Positions 1 to 7,789 of a stretch of DNA of 7,789 nt are shown in pieces. A program made the position numbers and the translations under genes. The number at the start of each line of letters is the position of its first letter. Positions within the stretch are counted from its first letter, which is position 1. Source of the DNA: Candidatus Cloacimonadota bacterium (lineage in GTDB: Bacteria; Cloacimonadota; Cloacimonadia; Cloacimonadales; WRIO01); assembly GCA_017998585.1 (NCBI GenBank), contig JAGOCT010000075.1:1-7789 (forward strand), given 5' to 3'. The notes below the pieces were generated by a model that was given only the letters and a program-made list of their open reading frames with translations, did not search any database and was not told the origin of the DNA.

Positions 1-1835
1 GCTTCTAAAACAGATATTCTGGCTTCAGGATTATGAGTTATCAGATTGAGCAAGATATCTTTCATCTCATCATTGGTATCTAATGAATGAATAAATCGTT
101 CATAGTATATTTTTTCAAACAGACGACCTGAATGATAAAGGTCCAGGGTATCTTTCTTATTAATCATTAACAACATGGCAATACCGGCATAATATGAAAA
201 GCTCTTGTTCTCTACCCATTTATTGTTTTGTTTTACTTCGGGGCAAATCATGTAGCGATTACCCAGCACATTTTGAAGCAGAGGATTTTCCAGAAAAGTC
301 TCATTCTCCTGATTAATCAATATCCAAAAATCATTAATAAATGGATTTTTTAACTTATCAAACTGAATAGAATTGGGGGCTATTCCCAGTATTTTGTATT
401 TTTTGCGTTGAAGCATGATAAAGAATTCAACCATTTTCTTTAAATCATTTCTCAGACCTTTCATAAAATACTGAGGGAAGTAATTCTGAGGAGATTGATA
501 GGAAATCAGACTTTCATTTGCAGAAATCTCAATCAATTCAGGCAAGAAAGTGTAGTTTTGAATCAAATTTACACGACTCTTGTAAAAAAGAGAGTCCCTC
601 AAACCACTTTCGACATTCCCTAATTGATTTGACATATTGACATTTGAGCACTGTCCAGACAGGTCAAAGAATCTCTCTTTTCTAATTACATTGAAAGCGA
701 TAATATTTTTCTTATATCGTTGTTCCCTTTCTATATCTAAGTTCTTAGCAAACCAATTGCCAGAAATGGAAACAAGATTCTGATCAGTATCAATTTTATA
801 TATGCAGGGATTAAAATTAACATTTTTATTTGAGCACAATTCTGAAACGAATTCCTGTAAACTCTGATAGCGATTATCCGGATTATCCTGTAATGCCTTC
901 CTGAAAACATCCGGCCAGTGCTTTGCATTTGCTTTTCGTGTAATGTCCTCAAAGATATTCCAGTCAAGAATCACTCTTTTATTTAAATCGAGAACAGGTC
1001 CCTTGCCTGTGATTAATTCAAATGCAGACATCGCAAGCGCATATACATCAACCGCTGGCGATAAATACATTGACTGGTCTTCTGCGATCTCCGGGGCACT
1101 ATAGCCTGGTGTTGTTGTGATTTTATTATGTAATTCATCATTTACCATGATTGCAAAACTACCCATATCAATCAGAACCAGCTGTTTGTCATCAGTATAA
1201 ATCGTATTGCTGGGTTTTAAATCACAATAATAAAAATGGAATTTCACACCTTGTGACTCATATATGGTATGAAAACGGGTTAAAATATTCGCAATGGTTT
1301 TAATGTAAAACTCAACAAAGCCAATTCGATTGGTGTTTAGTATATAATGCTCTGATGTTAACGGACCACCGGTAAAATAGTTCACCACCAGATAAGGTTC
1401 TTCTTTGTAATAATCCTCTTCAATACAAAAAGTCTCATCTTTATCGGTAATATGCGGTCCAAATATTTCAGGATTAATGTCTGTAAACAAATCTAAAGGA
1501 ACCGGAATACTTGGAATACCTCTTGCCCAACCATGTAACATCGCCGCATACTCTGTTTTAATACTTTCTCTGATGCTTTCAATCGTATCCGTTCTGTCAG
1601 CATCATTTCGATGCTTAAAAAGAATGGGTTTATAGATAGCTCGTTTTATCAAAACTTTTTTATCATAAAGCTGTTTGTCTTTTGCAATCAGAATAATACC
1701 TATTCCCCCGACTGCAAGCAAATCAATGACTTCATAACGGTCATTCTTTAAAAAACGGGGAATCTTGTAATTCATACCATTTTTTTCAAAAACCAGCAAT
1801 TCCCTGTTCAATCTATTATTAAATTGTCTTTTCAT
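1..1835 (-). CDS. Hanks-type Ser/Thr protein kinase with a second degenerate kinase-like domain; C-terminus cut by window edge
   Basis: Predicted cytoplasmic Ser/Thr kinase, 611 codons visible, open to the left edge without a stop. Residues about 33-335 form a full kinase domain: a glycine-rich loop LAVGGIGIILIA (40-51), Lys64 (VLIK), a candidate helix-C Glu95, the catalytic loop YCDLKPSN (203-210; Asp205, Lys207, Asn210), DMG in place of DFG (223-225), APE (247-249), Asp263 and Arg322. The HRD motif reads YCD, so this is a non-RD kinase. Residues about 375 onward repeat the order of kinase C-lobe landmarks in decayed form: GIAPN (484-488), DFW (502-504), YMICPE (528-533), SYYAG (547-551), NPEAR (602-606). 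This suggests a tandem pseudokinase. ATG at 1835 is chosen because it has a well-placed GAAGGAT and lies 2 bases after the FHA gene's stop. No transmembrane helix or PASTA repeat is seen in the visible part. The kinase assignment is sure; the substrate is unknown; FHA and VWA partners are inferred from context. Confidence 0.93.
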   Translation of the reverse strand, partial: MKRQFNNRLNRELLVFEKNGMNYKIPRFLKNDRYEVIDLLAVGGIGIILIAKDKQLYDKKVLIKRAIYKPILFKHRNDADRTDTIESIRESIKTEYAAMLHGWARGIPSIPVPLDLFTDINPEIFGPHITDKDETFCIEEDYYKEEPYLVVNYFTGGPLTSEHYILNTNRIGFVEFYIKTIANILTRFHTIYESQGVKFHFYYCDLKPSNTIYTDDKQLVLIDMGSFAIMVNDELHNKITTTPGYSAPEIAEDQSMYLSPAVDVYALAMSAFELITGKGPVLDLNKRVILDWNIFEDITRKANAKHWPDVFRKALQDNPDNRYQSLQEFVSELCSNKNVNFNPCIYKIDTDQNLVSISGNWFAKNLDIEREQRYKKNIIAFNVIRKERFFDLSGQCSNVNMSNQLGNVESGLRDSLFYKSRVNLIQNYTFLPELIEISANESLISYQSPQNYFPQYFMKGLRNDLKKMVEFFIMLQRKKYKILGIAPNSIQFDKLKNPFINDFWILINQENETFLENPLLQNVLGNRYMICPEVKQNNKWVENKSFSYYAGIAMLLMINKKDTLDLYHSGRLFEKIYYERFIHSLDTNDEMKDILLNLITHNPEARISVLE

Positions 1836-1837
1836 GA

Positions 1838-2839
1838 CTAATCCTTCACAATTTTCAGAGAGAATTCTCCCAACACTATTTCTCCGTCCATCTTTAAAAC
1901 GGCCTTATCCTCAGGAAAGACTTCCTGATTGTTGTAAGTACATCTGTGAGAACCGGTATTCTTCATAAACAAAAATTCCTCATTCTGCCAGATTTTCAGA
2001 TGATTTCTTGATATTCTGTCTAATTTATCTGAATAGCGGGATAAATCAATATCAACTACTTTCATTGACAGGGATTTTCTTCCGACCAAAACAGGATGAT
2101 GTTTGATAATCGGATATTTGTCTTTCTTTTGTCCCTGAAAATAAATCTCTATTGCACATTTTTCTTTTGTTATTGGCCAGTTCTTTCTTTCATCTTGTTC
2201 GGTCTCTGCCTGCTTTGACTGAGGGGATTGCTGATTGCTTACAGGTTGTTGAACAGGTTGGCTGCTAATCATCTGTGTTTTTTTCTTTTCAGTCGAATGA
2301 ACATAGACAGTATGCTTTTCATTCTGAGTCGTATAAATGAGCGTATAAAAGCCAGCAGGCAGATTTTTTATTGTTATTTTATTTTGGTTCACAGATAAAC
2401 AAGAATTATATTGTGATTCAACAAAGCTACAATCTTGAATTGTTGCTACAGCAGTAATATCACAAGAGTCTTCTTCACAAAAATCAATACTAACAGAAGG
2501 CTTATTAATCAGAATCTTTTCCTGAGTTAAAGGGACTTCAGCTTTTGTGATTTTTATCTCTTCCTGAATAACGACAGGTTTAACAGATTCTGTTTTTTGG
2601 GAGTCCTCTGATTCAACAATTTCAAAATCAATAATATCTGAATACCCTGTATCTTCAACGGTGTATTTAACTCTACGGAATGCCTTTTTAATCGCATTTT
2701 TGTCAGGGGTAATAATTAATTCATTTTTTTCTGATCTGATATCCAAATCATTGTCATTATCAATTTCCCAGGTGATTGTATCTAAATCATCGCTCTTAGC
2801 TTTGAAAACATTTTCCTGATTTATATAGATATATCTCAT
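1838..2839 (-). CDS. FHA-domain protein with N-terminal beta-rich regions
   Basis: Likely phosphothreonine-reading adaptor of 333 residues. The C-terminal FHA domain (about 226-333) has the classical landmarks: Gly253-Arg254 in LVGRKS, Ser277-Arg278-x-His280 in ISRNHLKI, and Asn294 in KNTGSH. These are the residues that in known FHA domains fold the phosphopeptide-binding loops. Residues 1-75 look beta-rich (alternating hydrophobics, YTVEDTGYSDIIDFEI), possibly an Ig-like fold. Residues about 115-182 look like a second beta-sandwich (ITIKNLPAGFYTLIYT) and carry four cysteines (121, 126, 137, 147). A Gln/Ser/Lys-rich linker (about 186-222) joins them to the FHA domain. No signal peptide is seen. 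The ATG is preceded by TTGAGGT. The gene sits 16 bases after the VWA stop and 2 bases before the kinase start, which suits a scaffold between kinase and substrate. The FHA call is firm; the N-terminal folds are by-eye impressions. Confidence 0.9.
   Translation of the reverse strand: MRYIYINQENVFKAKSDDLDTITWEIDNDNDLDIRSEKNELIITPDKNAIKKAFRRVKYTVEDTGYSDIIDFEIVESEDSQKTESVKPVVIQEEIKITKAEVPLTQEKILINKPSVSIDFCEEDSCDITAVATIQDCSFVESQYNSCLSVNQNKITIKNLPAGFYTLIYTTQNEKHTVYVHSTEKKKTQMISSQPVQQPVSNQQSPQSKQAETEQDERKNWPITKEKCAIEIYFQGQKKDKYPIIKHHPVLVGRKSLSMKVVDIDLSRYSDKLDRISRNHLKIWQNEEFLFMKNTGSHRCTYNNQEVFPEDKAVLKMDGEIVLGEFSLKIVKD
1841..1847 (-). promoter_or_regulatory. Ribosome binding site of the kinase gene
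   Basis: GAAGGAT on the minus strand, 5 bases before the ATG at 1835. It lies in the last codons of the FHA gene, so the kinase is probably translated by coupling to its upstream neighbour. It fixes the kinase start, because the reading frame has no stop within the window to define it otherwise. Confidence 0.7.
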
Positions 2840-2843
2840 TTTA

Positions 2844-2850
2844 ACCTCAA
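2844..2850 (-). promoter_or_regulatory. Ribosome binding site of the FHA-protein gene
   Basis: TTGAGGT on the minus strand, 4 bases before the ATG at 2839. It lies in the 16-base spacer (2840-2855) that is the longest non-coding stretch in the window. The spacer is too short to hold a promoter or terminator. Confidence 0.65.
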
Positions 2851-2855
2851 CTTAG

Positions 2856-4175
2856 TTAAATAATCACTTGTTTAATATTTTGTGAAGTTGTACTTTTAAA
2901 AGCAGATCTGACTGATGATTTTGTCGAGTTATAAGAAATATTGTTGATATCTTCCATTGAAAGGGCATTATCTCTTACGATTTTGTTTTTTAATTTCCTG
3001 AACTCATTTGCTTTTTCATTATCACCAATTTGCTCTGCCAGATTTGCCATCGATTCAAGTCTTGCGGCTGCCTGAGTAAAGTTTTTCTCATTAACCAGTT
3101 TGTTAAGTTCTGTTTCATGTATTAATATTTCAATATCCTTATAAGCAATATCAATCGAGCTTGATATAATTAAATCGGATGCAGAATCAGAGAAATTTAC
3201 AAAAATAGCCTGAGTTACTGATTCATTATCAATATTCTGGCTGGGGCAGGAATAAACGATTTGAGCTTCTCCAATCTGCAAAGAATTAGAATCGGGTGCA
3301 TCCATTGTAAAATCAAATAGAAATTCAACAAAACCCTGTTGTTCAATATCGCCTGCTGATACTTGAACAACGGTTCCATTATTATTTCTCTGAACAAATT
3401 TATCAAAGTTTTTCTGAGAAGGTAAGTGCATAAAAAAGTGTACATCCCTGATTTCCTTAATAAAATGCAGGTTAATGAATACTTTTTTAAGAAATACATT
3501 TGAAGAACTTTTATATATATTAAGGAAAACCGTTGAAGCCTGAGCCGGATCAGTCAGGTTCTCAGTCAAACTCCCTGAATAATCAGTAAATTGTTTCATA
3601 AAATTATAGTTAAAATCACCGCCAATGCCCATAGAATCTGTAGTAATCCCCTGCTTAGCCATCTCACTGCATATAGACAATGCATTGGCACTATTTCCTC
3701 CATAGGCATTACCATCTGTTAAAAAAATCAATTTATGATTTTCATTCGCTCTGCTGTTACAAACAGATTTTGCCATTTGCATTGCTGCTTCAAAATTTGT
3801 TGCACCATTGTCATTGCCATATTCAACAAGAGCTTGCCTAAGGGCTGAGTCGGCATTCCCAGGTAAATGATCTGCCCTCACAATTGCCTGAGAATTAAAA
3901 GAGATAATACTGATTGTATCTGTTGGCTGAATATAACTCAGTAAAGAGCTCACCGCGTCAATCACAGTTTTACTCTTTGAATTTCCACTATTGTAAAAAC
4001 TTTCTCTCATGGAGCCGCTGCTGTCTAAAAGGAAAACAAGATTTATCTTCTCCCGTTTCTTTCTGTCTTTCTTTTCGCCTGCTAAAATTTGTATTCTGCC
4101 CTTAACCTGTTCATCAATAGATTTCTTTAAAATTCTGTCCTTGCTCAATGATAATGATAATTGTAATTCATTCAT
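2856..4175 (-). CDS. VWA-domain protein with intact MIDAS and Ser/Thr-rich C-terminal tail
   Basis: Predicted cytoplasmic metal-dependent protein-interaction platform, 439 residues. The VWA domain spans about 44-225 and has a complete MIDAS: DSSGS (51-55; Asp51, Ser53, Ser55), Thr126 in GATN and Asp154 in LTDG. It should therefore bind Mg2+ or a similar ion and a partner acidic residue. A short strand-rich segment precedes it (LQLSLSLSKDRIL). A second beta-rich region (about 226-335) and helical hairpins (about 343-402, EILIHETELNKLVNEK onward) follow, an arrangement reminiscent of bacterial stand-alone VWA proteins found beside kinases and PP2C phosphatases. The last 25 residues are different: 10 of the 18 residues from 414 to 431 are Ser or Thr, a candidate phospho-acceptor tail. 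No signal peptide or membrane helix is seen, unlike secreted or membrane VWA proteins. ATG is preceded by AGAGGTG. The gene follows PP2C with 3 bases between the coding regions. The VWA call is sure; binding partners are inferred. Confidence 0.93.
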   Translation of the reverse strand: MNELQLSLSLSKDRILKKSIDEQVKGRIQILAGEKKDRKKREKINLVFLLDSSGSMRESFYNSGNSKSKTVIDAVSSLLSYIQPTDTISIISFNSQAIVRADHLPGNADSALRQALVEYGNDNGATNFEAAMQMAKSVCNSRANENHKLIFLTDGNAYGGNSANALSICSEMAKQGITTDSMGIGGDFNYNFMKQFTDYSGSLTENLTDPAQASTVFLNIYKSSSNVFLKKVFINLHFIKEIRDVHFFMHLPSQKNFDKFVQRNNNGTVVQVSAGDIEQQGFVEFLFDFTMDAPDSNSLQIGEAQIVYSCPSQNIDNESVTQAIFVNFSDSASDLIISSSIDIAYKDIEILIHETELNKLVNEKNFTQAAARLESMANLAEQIGDNEKANEFRKLKNKIVRDNALSMEDINNISYNSTKSSVRSAFKSTTSQNIKQVII

Positions 4176-4178
4176 TTT

Positions 4179-5828
4179 TCACCTCTGGTTATTTATTTTT
4201 TTAAATTCCTGATTTTCTTTTTTCGCTTTCGTATTGGTCAGAATTAAGAGTGTCATATTATCAACTCCTGCTTTTTCATCTGCCATTCGACAAATCTGTC
4301 TGGAGACTTCTTTTAGATTAAAATTATGCTTTTGCATCAATTCTTTGAATAGTTTTAAGAGTTCTCTTTCATTTTCAACATCATCATCTCCTGTCTTAAT
4401 ACTGTCCATTAGTCCATCCGTACACACAAAGAGATAAGAATTCTCTTCAGGGTAATAGTTGAAAAAGCTGATGTCTTCATCTTTAATATTGCTATTAAAC
4501 TGATTTGTGGATTGATCATATTCAGACATTGGAATCACCTTGGTTAAATGTTTATCAGAAGCATCTTCTGTAAATATTTTCCTGTCAGTTGTCTGAAAAT
4601 AATTGGCAATCCGTTCTTCCAGTACATTATGATCTTCATTAATTCTCATGATTTTATCACCTTTGACATAATAAACCTGAGAATCCCCCAGATAAGCAAA
4701 TAACACCCTGTTTTTATCGGTAAAACCTAATATTAAGGTAGAGCACATAGGATGAACATCTGTTAACTGCCTATTCAAGACTCTCTTATTTAAGTCTGCT
4801 ATGCTTTCTTCATTGATGTTTCTGATGATTTCCGTCAACTTCTTTTTACATTCATTAATCCAGTCTTCACTGTCAAAATGAGAGATACTTGACATAAATT
4901 GCAGAATTTCATCTTTTCTGTCTTCAATATAGTTCAATATCTTAATGGATGCTAATTTCCCGCTGCCGATATTAGCAGTCGATACTCCATCTGCAAGCAT
5001 AAACAACATTGACTGGCAATTTTCAGAGCGAACCAGTGTATAAGCATCTTCATTTTGAAGAGATTTTTTATTCCGGCCATGCTCAGTATGAAAAGCATAT
5101 TCCCATACATTATCAGTCACTTGCTTTTTCTCGCAAATAGATTTCTTTTTACTGTTAAAATAAAATGCTGCGATATCATTACATGATTGGAATTTTTTCA
5201 AATCGTAAGAAATTTCATGAATGGCATATTTTTCTTCTGGTTTCAGTTTGAAAAAAGACATCATGACTTTAAAGATTTTTTTGATTGATATCAAGGCAGG
5301 AGAAGGCAAGTTTTGAATGTCTGTTTTCAGCAAATACAAATAAAAGGCATTTTTAGTCAGCTCTTGATTTAAAAGTTGCTGACTGATAAACATAGAATTC
5401 AGCTTTGCACTCATTAAATCATAATATTCATTTCTCACAGAATCAGGTATTTTCTTTTGGTCTGAAATGCAATAAGTATCCGCATCTAACCAGTTAAAGA
5501 GGATTTTATTATCGGATGAGATATAGAATTTATCATAAGGGATAACATACCAATACTTATTCAAAGTACTCATGTTATCTAAAAAACGGGCAAATGATAT
5601 CACCATTTGTTCTCTTTCATTTCGATTAGTTGTTCTCATTAATTTTTGATGGAATAATTCAATCTCGGCATTTTCATCACTCACAAGCATCTCTTCATCA
5701 AGCATGGATTGCTCAGAAAAATGACTGCAAACATACTTAATCAAAGCGTCAACATCTGTTAAAGGTTGAGTTTCATTTTTTAAAAATTCCTTTTTAATGG
5801 AATCAATAACAAATTCTTTAAACTTCAT
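4179..5828 (-). CDS. PP2C-family Ser/Thr phosphatase with long N-terminal extension
   Basis: Predicted metal-dependent phosphatase, 549 residues, about twice the size of a bare bacterial PP2C (about 240-260). The catalytic domain lies at about 240-532: NEDAY (259-263), LADGV (278-282, Asp280), LGDSQVYYV (380-388), CTDGL (469-473, Asp471) and VDNMT (522-526, Asp523). The acidic residues that hold the two metal ions in PP2C enzymes are thus present and it should be active. The opening motif looks more like the PP2C_2 type than PstP-type enzymes, and the usual GDSR reads GDSQ. The first 235 residues match no family I can name with certainty; residues about 90-215 show a weak likeness to a decayed kinase C-lobe. 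A Lys-rich tail (534-549) ends the protein. No membrane segment is seen. ATG is preceded by AAGGAG and the start overlaps the upstream gene by 11 bases. It probably reverses the marks of the kinase at the other end of the operon. Confidence 0.92.
   Translation of the reverse strand: MKFKEFVIDSIKKEFLKNETQPLTDVDALIKYVCSHFSEQSMLDEEMLVSDENAEIELFHQKLMRTTNRNEREQMVISFARFLDNMSTLNKYWYVIPYDKFYISSDNKILFNWLDADTYCISDQKKIPDSVRNEYYDLMSAKLNSMFISQQLLNQELTKNAFYLYLLKTDIQNLPSPALISIKKIFKVMMSFFKLKPEEKYAIHEISYDLKKFQSCNDIAAFYFNSKKKSICEKKQVTDNVWEYAFHTEHGRNKKSLQNEDAYTLVRSENCQSMLFMLADGVSTANIGSGKLASIKILNYIEDRKDEILQFMSSISHFDSEDWINECKKKLTEIIRNINEESIADLNKRVLNRQLTDVHPMCSTLILGFTDKNRVLFAYLGDSQVYYVKGDKIMRINEDHNVLEERIANYFQTTDRKIFTEDASDKHLTKVIPMSEYDQSTNQFNSNIKDEDISFFNYYPEENSYLFVCTDGLMDSIKTGDDDVENERELLKLFKELMQKHNFNLKEVSRQICRMADEKAGVDNMTLLILTNTKAKKENQEFKKINNQR
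4180..4186 (-). promoter_or_regulatory. Ribosome binding site of the VWA gene
   Basis: AGAGGTG on the minus strand, 4 bases before the ATG at 4175. Its final TG is part of the TGA stop codon of the PP2C gene (4179-4181), so termination of one gene and initiation of the next occur at the same place. Confidence 0.65.
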
Positions 5829-6399
5829 TTGTTTTACTCCTTAAATAATCTTCAAAATCTTTTTTTTGTTTTATGATTTCATCTGTTTTTTTTGTAATTA
5901 TATCCAAAATATGACCACAATCACTCATCTCTTTTTTTAATTCATGATAAGAATCAGCAAGATATTTTAAGTATTGAAAATCATTTTGATAATTGTCAGA
6001 AACTATTTTCAACTCCGGACTTTCTTTTATAAGTTTGTCCAGGGTATTTAGTATTTTTAGAAATTCTTCCATTTTTATGATATCATCAGAAATGGTATTT
6101 ATATCTTTCTGTTTTAATTCTAATTGTTTCAACAACATTTCTTTTTTTTGAATCAGACCATTCATCTCACTAAGTTGTGTTTGAATATTATCCTGTATTC
6201 CGGTAGATTGTCTGAGCATAAAAAAGTTTAACATTGAGCTCAATTGATTTAACACACTATTCATTTGACCATTATCAGAAGCCGTTTGATTTGAGTATTT
6301 TTTAAAACAATATAGAATTAGCTGATTTAGTATATTATCCTTTTCTAAAGGATTATGTTGTTCTAAATACTCATCAATTAATATTTTAAGATTATCCAT
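5818..6399 (-). CDS. Small helical, coiled-coil protein of unknown function
   Basis: I do not recognise a family for this 193-residue protein. It is charged (rich in Lys, Asp, Glu, Gln, Asn, Leu, Ile) and looks almost entirely helical. Residues 1-35 could form short helices. Residues about 70-125 have heptad-like hydrophobic spacing (IQTQLSEMNGLIQKKEMLL onward), broken at Pro128. A second coiled-coil-like stretch runs from about 140 to 188. Only Cys31 and Cys161 are present; there is no signal peptide, membrane helix or catalytic motif. ATG 6399 has GGGGAGG upstream and overlaps the AAA+ gene by 8 bases, while its own end overlaps the PP2C gene by 11 bases, so it is a real, translationally coupled member of the operon. 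Its place between the ATPase and the phosphatase suggests an adaptor or oligomerisation partner, but this is only inference. Three runs of eight A occur in the coding strand (5860-5867, 5886-5893, 6142-6149). Confidence 0.85.
   Translation of the reverse strand: MDNLKILIDEYLEQHNPLEKDNILNQLILYCFKKYSNQTASDNGQMNSVLNQLSSMLNFFMLRQSTGIQDNIQTQLSEMNGLIQKKEMLLKQLELKQKDINTISDDIIKMEEFLKILNTLDKLIKESPELKIVSDNYQNDFQYLKYLADSYHELKKEMSDCGHILDIITKKTDEIIKQKKDFEDYLRSKTNEV
5837..5842 (-). promoter_or_regulatory. Ribosome binding site of the PP2C gene
   Basis: AAGGAG on the minus strand, 8 bases before the ATG at 5828, a near-consensus site at ideal spacing. It lies in the last codons of the coiled-coil gene and supports ATG 5828 as the start. 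Confidence 0.75.
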
Positions 6400-7789
6400 T
6401 TAACCTCCCCAGCGCGATATCAAAATATTCTTTCTGAAAGGATATTTCCCTTTGATTTGAAACTGCAGACATAACTGCAATATTTTTTAATTCATCAATC
6501 AGTTTTCTTAATGTCCTTGCATTGGCAAAATATCTGATTTGTCTTAATTTTTCAAAAATTGAAAGGAGAAAATCATCGTCCTCAAAGTTTAAAGAGTAAC
6601 AAGACTCCTTATTCATTTGTTGTTTAAATATCGCTAAAAGTTCTGATGCATTATAATCGGGGAAATCAATAAACTCAGTAAACCGTCCTTTTAACCCAGG
6701 GTCATAATCCCACAATCGTTGCATTTGTTGAGGATAACCTGCCAATATAATACAAATATCATTTCTATGATTTTCCATAAAAGGGACTAATGTATTAATT
6801 ACATTTGTGCCGTATGAAAAACCTGATTGTTGGGGGACAAGCTGATGGGCTTCATCAATAAAAAGAACACCACCCAGAGATGAATTGAGTAATTTTTGAA
6901 AATGTTCTTCAGTCCCTCCAACTGCACTTTTTATCAATTCTGAAGCTGAGTAATTCTTTATTACAGCACGATTAATAATTTTTAATCTGCATAATTCATG
7001 AGCAATCATATTTGCCACCATCGTTTTCCCTGTTCCTGGATTTCCAGTAAAAACAAAATGACCAGGGCTTAAGTTATTTTCAATTTTCTTTCGTCTGAAA
7101 TAAACCTTTAAAGTATCCTTGATGTCATCTAAACCAACTAAGTCATCTAATTGACCTTTAGTTCTGTCAACTTGCTTAAAAAAGTCCTGATTTTCAAAAT
7201 GTTCTGTTTTAAGCTTATCAGATTGTAATGACAGACATTTCGTTATTGCGTTATTAACAATATTAGTAATGACTCCGGCATTACCAAAATGATTATTCTT
7301 AGCAAACTTTGAGTGATTCAACAATACATGATAACAATAATTGTGAGTATTCTCAAAAACAAACGAATCAACAGGCTGATTTAGTTTATCCAGATGATAT
7401 CTCATTATTTCTGAAAGTTCCTCTTCATTGTAATCATTGATGTCCCACTGTTGAATCCTTCTGGCTCCGCCCTGATTATATGAGAGCATTTTGATGGTAT
7501 CTTCTTTATAACCAGCAAAAATAGTCATAAACTGTCCTTGGTATGCAGACATATGCCCAATCAACTGAGATAAGGCCTCAATACCGACGGTATCATTGTC
7601 TCCTGTTATTAGCGAATAAGCTTCATCAATAAACAAAACTCCACCTAATGCTTTTTCCACCAACTGTCTGGTTTTTATTCCTGTTTCACCCACATACTGA
7701 GAGACAAGATCAGCACGCGAAGATTCAATCAAATGCCCCTTTTCTAATATGCCTTCTTCTTTTAAAATGTTTGCTATCAATCTGGCAAT
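6392..7789 (-). CDS. Double-module CbbX/SpoVK-like AAA+ ATPase; N-terminus cut by window edge
   Basis: Predicted ATP-driven protein remodeller of the CbbX/SpoVK clade; 465 residues visible, numbered here from the first codon at the right edge. Module 1 lacks its Walker A (beyond the edge) but has a pore-loop-like QYVGET (31-36), Walker B GGVLFIDEAY (49-58) and an arginine-finger-like GARRI (108-112). Module 2 (from about 215) is complete: Walker A GNPGTGKT (249-256), Walker B GGVLFIDEAH (306-315), sensor-1 region ILAGY, PGLKGRF with the arginine finger Arg369, and sensor 2 NAR (423-425). Module 1 has NAG where sensor 2 NAR is expected, and module 2 has SAVGGT in place of the aromatic pore loop. 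The frame is open at the edge; TTG at 7780 is an internal Leu codon in IARLIAN, which in relatives follows Walker A, so it is not the start. No Rubisco genes are near, so a Rubisco activase role is unlikely. It is the first visible gene of the operon. The actual target is unknown. Confidence 0.93.
   Translation of the reverse strand: MARLIANILKEEGILEKGHLIESSRADLVSQYVGETGIKTRQLVEKALGGVLFIDEAYSLITGDNDTVGIEALSQLIGHMSAYQGQFMTIFAGYKEDTIKMLSYNQGGARRIQQWDINDYNEEELSEIMRYHLDKLNQPVDSFVFENTHNYCYHVLLNHSKFAKNNHFGNAGVITNIVNNAITKCLSLQSDKLKTEHFENQDFFKQVDRTKGQLDDLVGLDDIKDTLKVYFRRKKIENNLSPGHFVFTGNPGTGKTMVANMIAHELCRLKIINRAVIKNYSASELIKSAVGGTEEHFQKLLNSSLGGVLFIDEAHQLVPQQSGFSYGTNVINTLVPFMENHRNDICIILAGYPQQMQRLWDYDPGLKGRFTEFIDFPDYNASELLAIFKQQMNKESCYSLNFEDDDFLLSIFEKLRQIRYFANARTLRKLIDELKNIAVMSAVSNQREISFQKEYFDIALGRLNG
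6404..6410 (-). promoter_or_regulatory. Ribosome binding site of the coiled-coil gene, inside the AAA+ gene
   Basis: GGGGAGG on the minus strand, 4 bases before the ATG at 6399. It is encoded within the last codons of the AAA+ ATPase, whose stop (6392-6394) lies just past the next gene's start. This arrangement favours coupled, near-stoichiometric translation of the two proteins. Confidence 0.7.

Follow-up and report, generated by a model that had tools for sequence, protein, structure and literature searches.

Antiphage or conflict roles have been published for several systems that are kin in kind to the locus described here, i.e., TerY-P and the SpoVK-bearing CoCoNuT systems (PMC11090510), KKP (PMC11341870), and kinase/PP2C/VWA sets (PMC7159879). 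TerY-P combines a TerY-like VWA protein and PP2C with a Ser/Thr kinase whose C terminus bears a zinc ribbon or, where the antiphage system stands alone, an OB fold, and in the type III-A CoCoNuT extension a SpoVK-family ATPase, with Walker motifs kept only in its C-terminal ATPase domain, is found beside TerY-P (PMC11090510). KKP has two separate active kinases, of which one carries a CSD and the other an FHA domain, together with PP2C, and its description contains no occurrence of VWA or AAA (PMC11341870). The kinase/PP2C/VWA sets of the GAP1-N2 conflict systems lie in actinobacterial GTPase loci with zinc-ribbon kinases (PMC7159879). Among type VII secretion systems (T7SS), T7SSc contains a VWA protein along with a kinase and a PPM phosphatase, FHA proteins occur in T7SSe, f, and j, and the loci need a TsxC ATPase and usually a WXG100 protein (PMC11217815). 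Here we analyze a 7789-base stretch of DNA (the window), which appears to be one whole contig from a Candidatus Cloacimonadota bacterium, and propose, as a tentative but preferred reading, that it holds most of a conserved, rare phospho-signaling/AAA+ operon whose switch drives an AAA+ remodeler, most likely in a conflict or stress role (against phage or another invader).

Six long open reading frames (ORFs), all on the minus strand, fill the contig in the transcription order AAA+ ATPase (7789–6392), coiled-coil protein (6399–5818), PP2C phosphatase (5828–4179), VWA protein (4175–2856), FHA protein (2839–1838), and kinase (1835–3). The AAA+ and coiled-coil genes overlap by 8 nt and the coiled-coil and PP2C genes by 11 nt, and the remaining gaps are 3 nt (PP2C-VWA), 16 nt (VWA-FHA), and 2 nt (FHA-kinase), confirming the tight six-domain operon described in the original prediction; its domain calls likewise hold, five of them with Pfam support and the coiled coil with weak matches only. 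All six genes recur in identical order and orientation in L002, an 8684-base contig of a Neomarinimicrobiota metagenome-assembled genome, with identities to the window of 49% (VWA), 44% (second AAA domain), 41% (kinase), 33% (PP2C), 29% (FHA), and 20% (coiled coil). Because the genes keep their order in two distant bacteria despite identities of 20–49%, the module is, as judged from sequence, a conserved functional unit, and one that is rare and scattered; the conserved neighborhood on which the original prediction had staked itself is thus found. Its extent of exactly six genes is not, since that limit is set by the contig ends, which truncate the AAA+ gene (5′) and the kinase gene (3′): the full kinase is longer, and L002, in which the AAA+ gene is likewise cut by the contig end, has a seventh gene. 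Scans of the window gave 38 promoters (34.9 expected, i.e., shuffle level) and 6 terminators (3.4 expected), and Rfam gave no matches in the window or L002.

L002 came from a scan of 84,980 species genomes in which 13 close VWA sequences served as queries and which detects only relatives that have two short conserved peptides in common; of its 290 pattern matches, one was confirmed as a locus. An earlier genome-contig scan without these closer sequences found nothing. The VWA protein is matched at 1e-20 in 1 of the 245 genomes searched in the phylum of L002 and in 31 of 392 genomes of a wider sample, where only G001 (the genome of L002) and G372 give matches below 1e-100; another sample, which overlaps this one in part and is centered on G372, has matches at 1e-35 in 4 of 386 genomes. 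For 6 of the 10 full-length kinase relatives, the longest contig is identical in size for the kinase and the VWA relative (17664, 15705, 30220, 66427, 26326, and 6741034 bases, i.e., five of 15–66 kb and one of 6.7 Mb, chromosome-sized), which shows a common contig, not adjacency. The best match of the window VWA protein is that protein itself, for which the longest contig measures 7789 bases, the length of the window. Wider context was taken for 11 of the 37 VWA places, loci L040 and L042–L046 being compared only by similarity to module proteins. A blastn search of phages with the window gave no match, and plasmid searches with the kinase and PP2C gave nothing closer than distant partial matches (7 and 2 records). 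The single match in viral-contig scans with the VWA protein and kinase, L001, is a VWA protein among apparent phage structural genes and was set aside as unrelated. A search of the open-access literature did not find the six-gene set described.

The kinase gene (3–1835; 611 aa before the 3′ cut, ∼778 aa when full length in relatives) matches Pfam Pkinase at E = 6.6e-20, and its active-looking Ser/Thr kinase domain (∼residues 25–336; 828–1763, minus strand) has Lys64, Asp205, Asp223, and APE conserved throughout all 10 rows of alignment A4, which comprises 10 of the 12 kinase matches (P0055 and P0056, with a match over 41%, were omitted). The structure model of P0052, a protein named Cloacimonadota by NCBI that has 93% identity to the window kinase, shows PknB/PknI folds, with a second kinase fold at residues 355–620 and then an alpha/beta pattern; in the window, the second fold runs from ∼residue 355 to the contig end (3–773, minus strand), and the C-terminal alpha/beta domain of the kinase relatives falls beyond the window end. 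Fused to the first kinase unit and lacking the catalytic Asp, the second is probably a pseudokinase; the link to kinases was made by the structure model alone, sequence profiles giving a probability of at most 0.5 for this half of the protein.

The other three signaling proteins also keep their functional residues. The PP2C-type phosphatase (4179–5828, minus strand; 549 aa, the N-terminal ∼245 aa of which have no domain assignment) matches PP2C_2 at E = 1.6e-9, above the Pfam cut-off, and has its metal-site aspartates conserved across all 6 rows of alignment A5; its structure model, built from two sequences, has a mean predicted local distance difference test (pLDDT) score of 42.0. A degenerate kinase in the N-terminal region was considered and is unsupported by profile alignment (probability ≤1.9). 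The VWA protein (2856–4175, minus strand; 439 aa) matches VWA_2 at E = 1.8e-16, falls just under the cut-off of the Pfam vWA-TerF-like model (26.9 against 29.4 bits), and has an intact metal ion-dependent adhesion site (MIDAS), whose residues are kept in all 33 rows of alignment A1 (33 of the 44 VWA matches; fragments P0014 and P0016, P0029, P0030, P0032, and partial matches P0039–P0044 were omitted). In the FHA protein (1838–2839, minus strand; 333 aa), the FHA domain at residues 251–324 (about 2089–1868) matches Pfam FHA at E = 9.3e-5 (23.2 bits against a cut-off of 20.7). An SRNH motif is present in both the window and L002, and the window domain keeps GR, SxxH, and the next Asn, with GK in place of GR in L002 and loss of the SxxH His in a diverged cousin locus, L036. 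The motif names used for these proteins follow general usage.

At the head of the operon, the AAA+ protein (6392–7789, minus strand; 465 aa in the window, 5′ cut) matches Pfam AAA at E = 1.3e-28 in two stretches, and its nearest NCBIfam models are SpoVK (285.6 bits against a cut-off of 422.95), EccA (262.1 against 466.65), and CbbX (251.1 against 459.25); the tandem CbbX-like ATPase of the original prediction is thus recovered, and the 5′-cut window protein falls below all three curated equivalog cut-offs. P0058, named Candidatus Cloacimonadota in the nr database, has 99.6% identity to the window AAA+ over 278 aa and puts the full-length protein at ∼822 aa. Within the window, both AAA domains carry Walker B and the second also carries Walker A, Walker A of the first being seen only via the near-identical P0058; on these motifs, both ATPase domains look active. 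For none of the best 25 of the 53 Pfam families matched by P0058 does the best stretch fall within residues 1–290; this N-terminal region could represent a third ATPase domain that has degenerated, or a sensor. The search for AAA+ relatives admitted proteins of up to ∼814 aa, against ∼822 aa for the full protein, and all 7998 scored candidates matched; among plasmids, P0058 matches 268 records, none covering >80% of the query. The adjoining coiled-coil/helical protein (5818–6399, minus strand; 193 aa) has weak, below-cut-off Pfam matches only and a relative at the equivalent place in L002 (E = 1.9e-9).

P0058 has three matches in the PDB, with CbbX and EccA1 as the nearest solved relatives. 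The presence of EccA1 among these, and the second rank of EccA among the NCBIfam models for the window protein, favor a reading in which the operon encodes a phospho-regulated accessory of secretion or surface assembly in the manner of T7SSc, with the EccA-like AAA+ as a cytoplasmic chaperone for exported substrates. T7SS variants do carry VWA, kinase, and PPM phosphatase (c) or FHA (e, f, and j) (PMC11217815). Against this, no FtsK/EssC-type (TsxC) ATPase or WXG100 protein is recognized among the ORFs of the window and L002, both short contigs, in a comparison that included no genome-wide T7SS search, and the type VI secretion system (T6SS) protein TssC is absent from both relative genomes, G001 and G372 (a control gives matches in 1 of 14); we consider the secretion reading quite improbable. 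TerD is also absent from these two genomes (control, matches in 2 of 14), and a complete T6SS or Ter locus is rejected as far as they tell. The original prediction saw no hallmark genes of the T6SS or TerY-P systems in the window; the search for TssC and TerD covered the two relative genomes.

The signaling part of the operon has broader kin. Quartets of VWA, FHA, PP2C, and kinase genes occur on Gloeothece and Deinococcus plasmids (L034 and L035), with VWA proteins at 19–20% identity to that of the window and no AAA+/coiled-coil pair annotated beside them, and L039 and L041 hold VWA/PP2C/kinase sets. Because the quartets occur without an annotated AAA+ gene, the four-type signaling core extends wider than the six-gene module, and the AAA+/coiled-coil pair and a histidine-kinase pair (see below) look, from gene content, like additions to it. 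The Deinococcus quartet (L035:11896–17682; order VWA-kinase-FHA-PP2C) sits on a megaplasmid beside replication and partition genes. In L050 (5858–11728, genome G578), three VWA genes of the superfamily stand in a row around a PP2C gene, and one further G578 match has an internal stop. By profile alignment, the N-terminal regions of several PP2C proteins (L034:13868–15613, L039:11737–13635, L041:10509–11951, and L050:7306–8952) look kinase-like, with a probability of 95.7 for the L034/L039/L041 set and 92.8 for L050, and these proteins may be pseudokinase-PP2C fusions in VWA/kinase neighborhoods.

Quartets without AAA+ in ordinary surroundings on the Gloeothece and Deinococcus plasmids, together with CbbX and EccA1 as nearest solved relatives of P0058, favor another explanation, namely that the operon encodes a chromosomal regulator of stress, envelope, or cell-cycle functions that plays no part in conflict, its AAA+ serving as a protein-quality or enzyme-reactivation chaperone like CbbX. 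We rate this as rather unlikely: the very patchy distribution is untypical of a core regulator, and the CRISPR and PIN-like neighbors of the diverged cousin also speak against it.

This cousin, L036, lies in the 7.6 Mb genome G372 and comprises PP2C, VWA, FHA-like, kinase, second kinase-like, TPR-like/HATPase, receiver, and PIN-like genes, with 26% (VWA) and 30% (kinase) identity to the window. Pfam finds a HATPase domain on the TPR-like protein (4.7e-8), a receiver domain (1.4e-10), and, below cut-off, a PIN-like domain (1.3e-3); the FHA-like protein (14.9 bits against 20.7), the PP2C (23.8 against 24, just below), and the second kinase-like gene (20.9 against 31.7) also fall under their cut-offs, and the last was equated with the second half of the window kinase by position and this sub-cut-off match, not by sequence similarity. 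The seventh gene of L002 resembles the L036 protein carrying the histidine-kinase ATPase domain, which receiver and PIN-like proteins follow, and a Ser/Thr-only switch is for this reason probably not what the module encodes. The histidine-kinase protein of L036 has no match among plasmids. The PIN-like gene (L036:17939–19048), whose start overlaps the receiver stop by 4 nt and whose product has a repetitive Thr/Ser/Pro-rich C-terminal tail, is a candidate effector RNase for this module. It should be noted that three features are our own reading of the sequences: the TPR-like character of proteins in L002 and L036 and the Cas2-like ORF below, neither of which has family-model support, and the PIN active-site residues.

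Directly downstream of the cousin module, 357 bp past its end and on the same strand, lies a CRISPR cluster (L052:1406–15110, contig C183 of G372) with a CARF-HEPN gene (TIGR02710, above cut-off), Cas6, a reverse transcriptase (RT)-primase fusion, a CRISPR PrimPol, Cas1, the Cas2-like ORF, and a repeat array with at least 41 units. The fusion of RT to an archaeo-eukaryotic primase (AEP) in this cluster looks unusual, and the PrimPol there is a second one. The Csm1 model stays below cut-off in both G001 and G372, its hits in the latter being on other contigs. Because G372 holds only four Cas1 genes in total, chance adjacency of L036 to CRISPR should be uncommon, and the arrangement suggests a link to phage defense.

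We infer the regulatory steps, the target, and the defense role as follows. A stress or infection signal would release the kinase from restraint by the fused pseudokinase, and the kinase would phosphorylate Thr residues on its operon partners; the FHA protein would dock on the phospho-marks, with the VWA (MIDAS) protein as platform, and the complex assembled in this way would load or activate the tandem CbbX/SpoVK-type AAA+ ring. The ring would remodel a target protein via the coiled-coil adaptor, PP2C would reset the switch, and in relatives the histidine-kinase and receiver proteins would probably extend the switch to His-Asp signaling. A phospho-switch controlling a remodeling machine is plausible. 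The scattered distribution, the resemblance to TerY-P, KKP, and the SpoVK-bearing CoCoNuT extensions, and the CRISPR and PIN-like neighbors of the cousin lead us to prefer a conflict or stress role to housekeeping.

Several observations weigh against this proposal. None of the six genes encodes a nuclease or another effector, the VWA and PP2C proteins of the window match no PADLOC model, and the searches made of phages, plasmids, and viral contigs gave no close relative. Only the window and L002 show the AAA+ and coiled-coil genes together with the remaining four, and no genes like them are recognized in L036. The CRISPR adjacency is a single case, spotted post hoc in a genome with four Cas1 genes, and the single Cas1 gene of G001 is on a different contig from L002. 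Finally, the quartets of L034 type, found on two plasmids, adjoin ordinary or replication genes.

A more far-reaching version of the conflict role, which we regard as unlikely, is an undescribed immune-signaling system in which a JAK-like kinase-pseudokinase, a phosphatase, and an FHA reader would build, on a VWA scaffold, the complex that triggers a two-ring CbbX-type AAA+ remodeler, the histidine-kinase/receiver pair linking this system to an RNase arm of the PIN or CARF-HEPN type and, for some hosts, to immunity by CRISPR; if true, it would join eukaryote-like Ser/Thr, two-component, and CRISPR second-messenger signaling in one locus. If the proposal of a phospho-switched remodeler is right, the kinase/phosphatase/VWA switch, so far described in TerY-P, KKP, and T7SS add-ons, would also drive a tandem CbbX-type AAA+, and the small operon would offer a place where biochemistry could reveal what such a switch acts on. 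With its tandem of kinase and pseudokinase and its probable extension by a histidine kinase, the module would likewise be a compact system in which to test for cross-talk of Ser/Thr with His-Asp signaling.

How the module compares with the described systems bears on one further possibility, that it belongs to, or branched directly off, the antiphage modules TerY-P or KKP, the AAA+ gene being no more than a loose neighbor. It has T7SSc-like (VWA, kinase, and phosphatase) and T7SSe/f/j-like (FHA) components (PMC11217815), and an active kinase, adjacent PP2C, and stand-alone VWA protein in common with the GAP1-N2 sets, which differ in belonging to actinobacterial GAP1-N2 GTPase loci with zinc-ribbon kinases (PMC7159879). 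Its two kinase units, PP2C phosphatase, and FHA domain have counterparts in KKP; unlike KKP, it has one fused kinase-pseudokinase instead of two separate active kinases, its FHA domain is on a gene of its own, and VWA and AAA+ are added (PMC11341870). KKP membership is rejected on the kinase arrangement and the separate FHA gene. The window kinase does score against the PADLOC PD-T4-6 models (best E = 3.2e-19), as many Ser/Thr kinases would. Against an origin within TerY-P or KKP, the AAA+ gene keeps its place in L002; we consider such an origin quite improbable, as we do the secretion reading. The tandem SpoVK-type AAA+ in a locus with VWA, PP2C, and kinase genes recalls the CoCoNuT extension, from which the module differs in keeping Walker motifs in both ATPase domains and in having no second VWA gene seen in the window or L002 (PMC11090510); no McrB or McrC is recognized among the ORFs looked at in these two short contigs.

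The original prediction likened the core of the operon to the TerY-P triad, with which the window has neighboring genes for a VWA protein with MIDAS, PP2C, and a Ser/Thr kinase in common (PMC11090510). The PP2C neighbor is present, and the window differs in adding FHA, coiled-coil, and AAA+ genes. Its VWA protein does not match the PADLOC TerY model, or any PADLOC family, at E up to 10; the L034 VWA protein, by contrast, matches the TerY model PDLC02224 at 2.1e-5. The full-length L002 kinase gives no zinc-ribbon, OB-fold, or cold-shock match (Pfam, E up to 0.1), and the tail of this kinase type is, as modeled, a second kinase fold followed by the alpha/beta domain. TerY-P membership is thus rejected on both the VWA protein and the kinase tail, and the analogy stands: the module would work like TerY-P, yet is not filed as TerY-P because its VWA protein misses the TerY model and its kinase carries a different tail.

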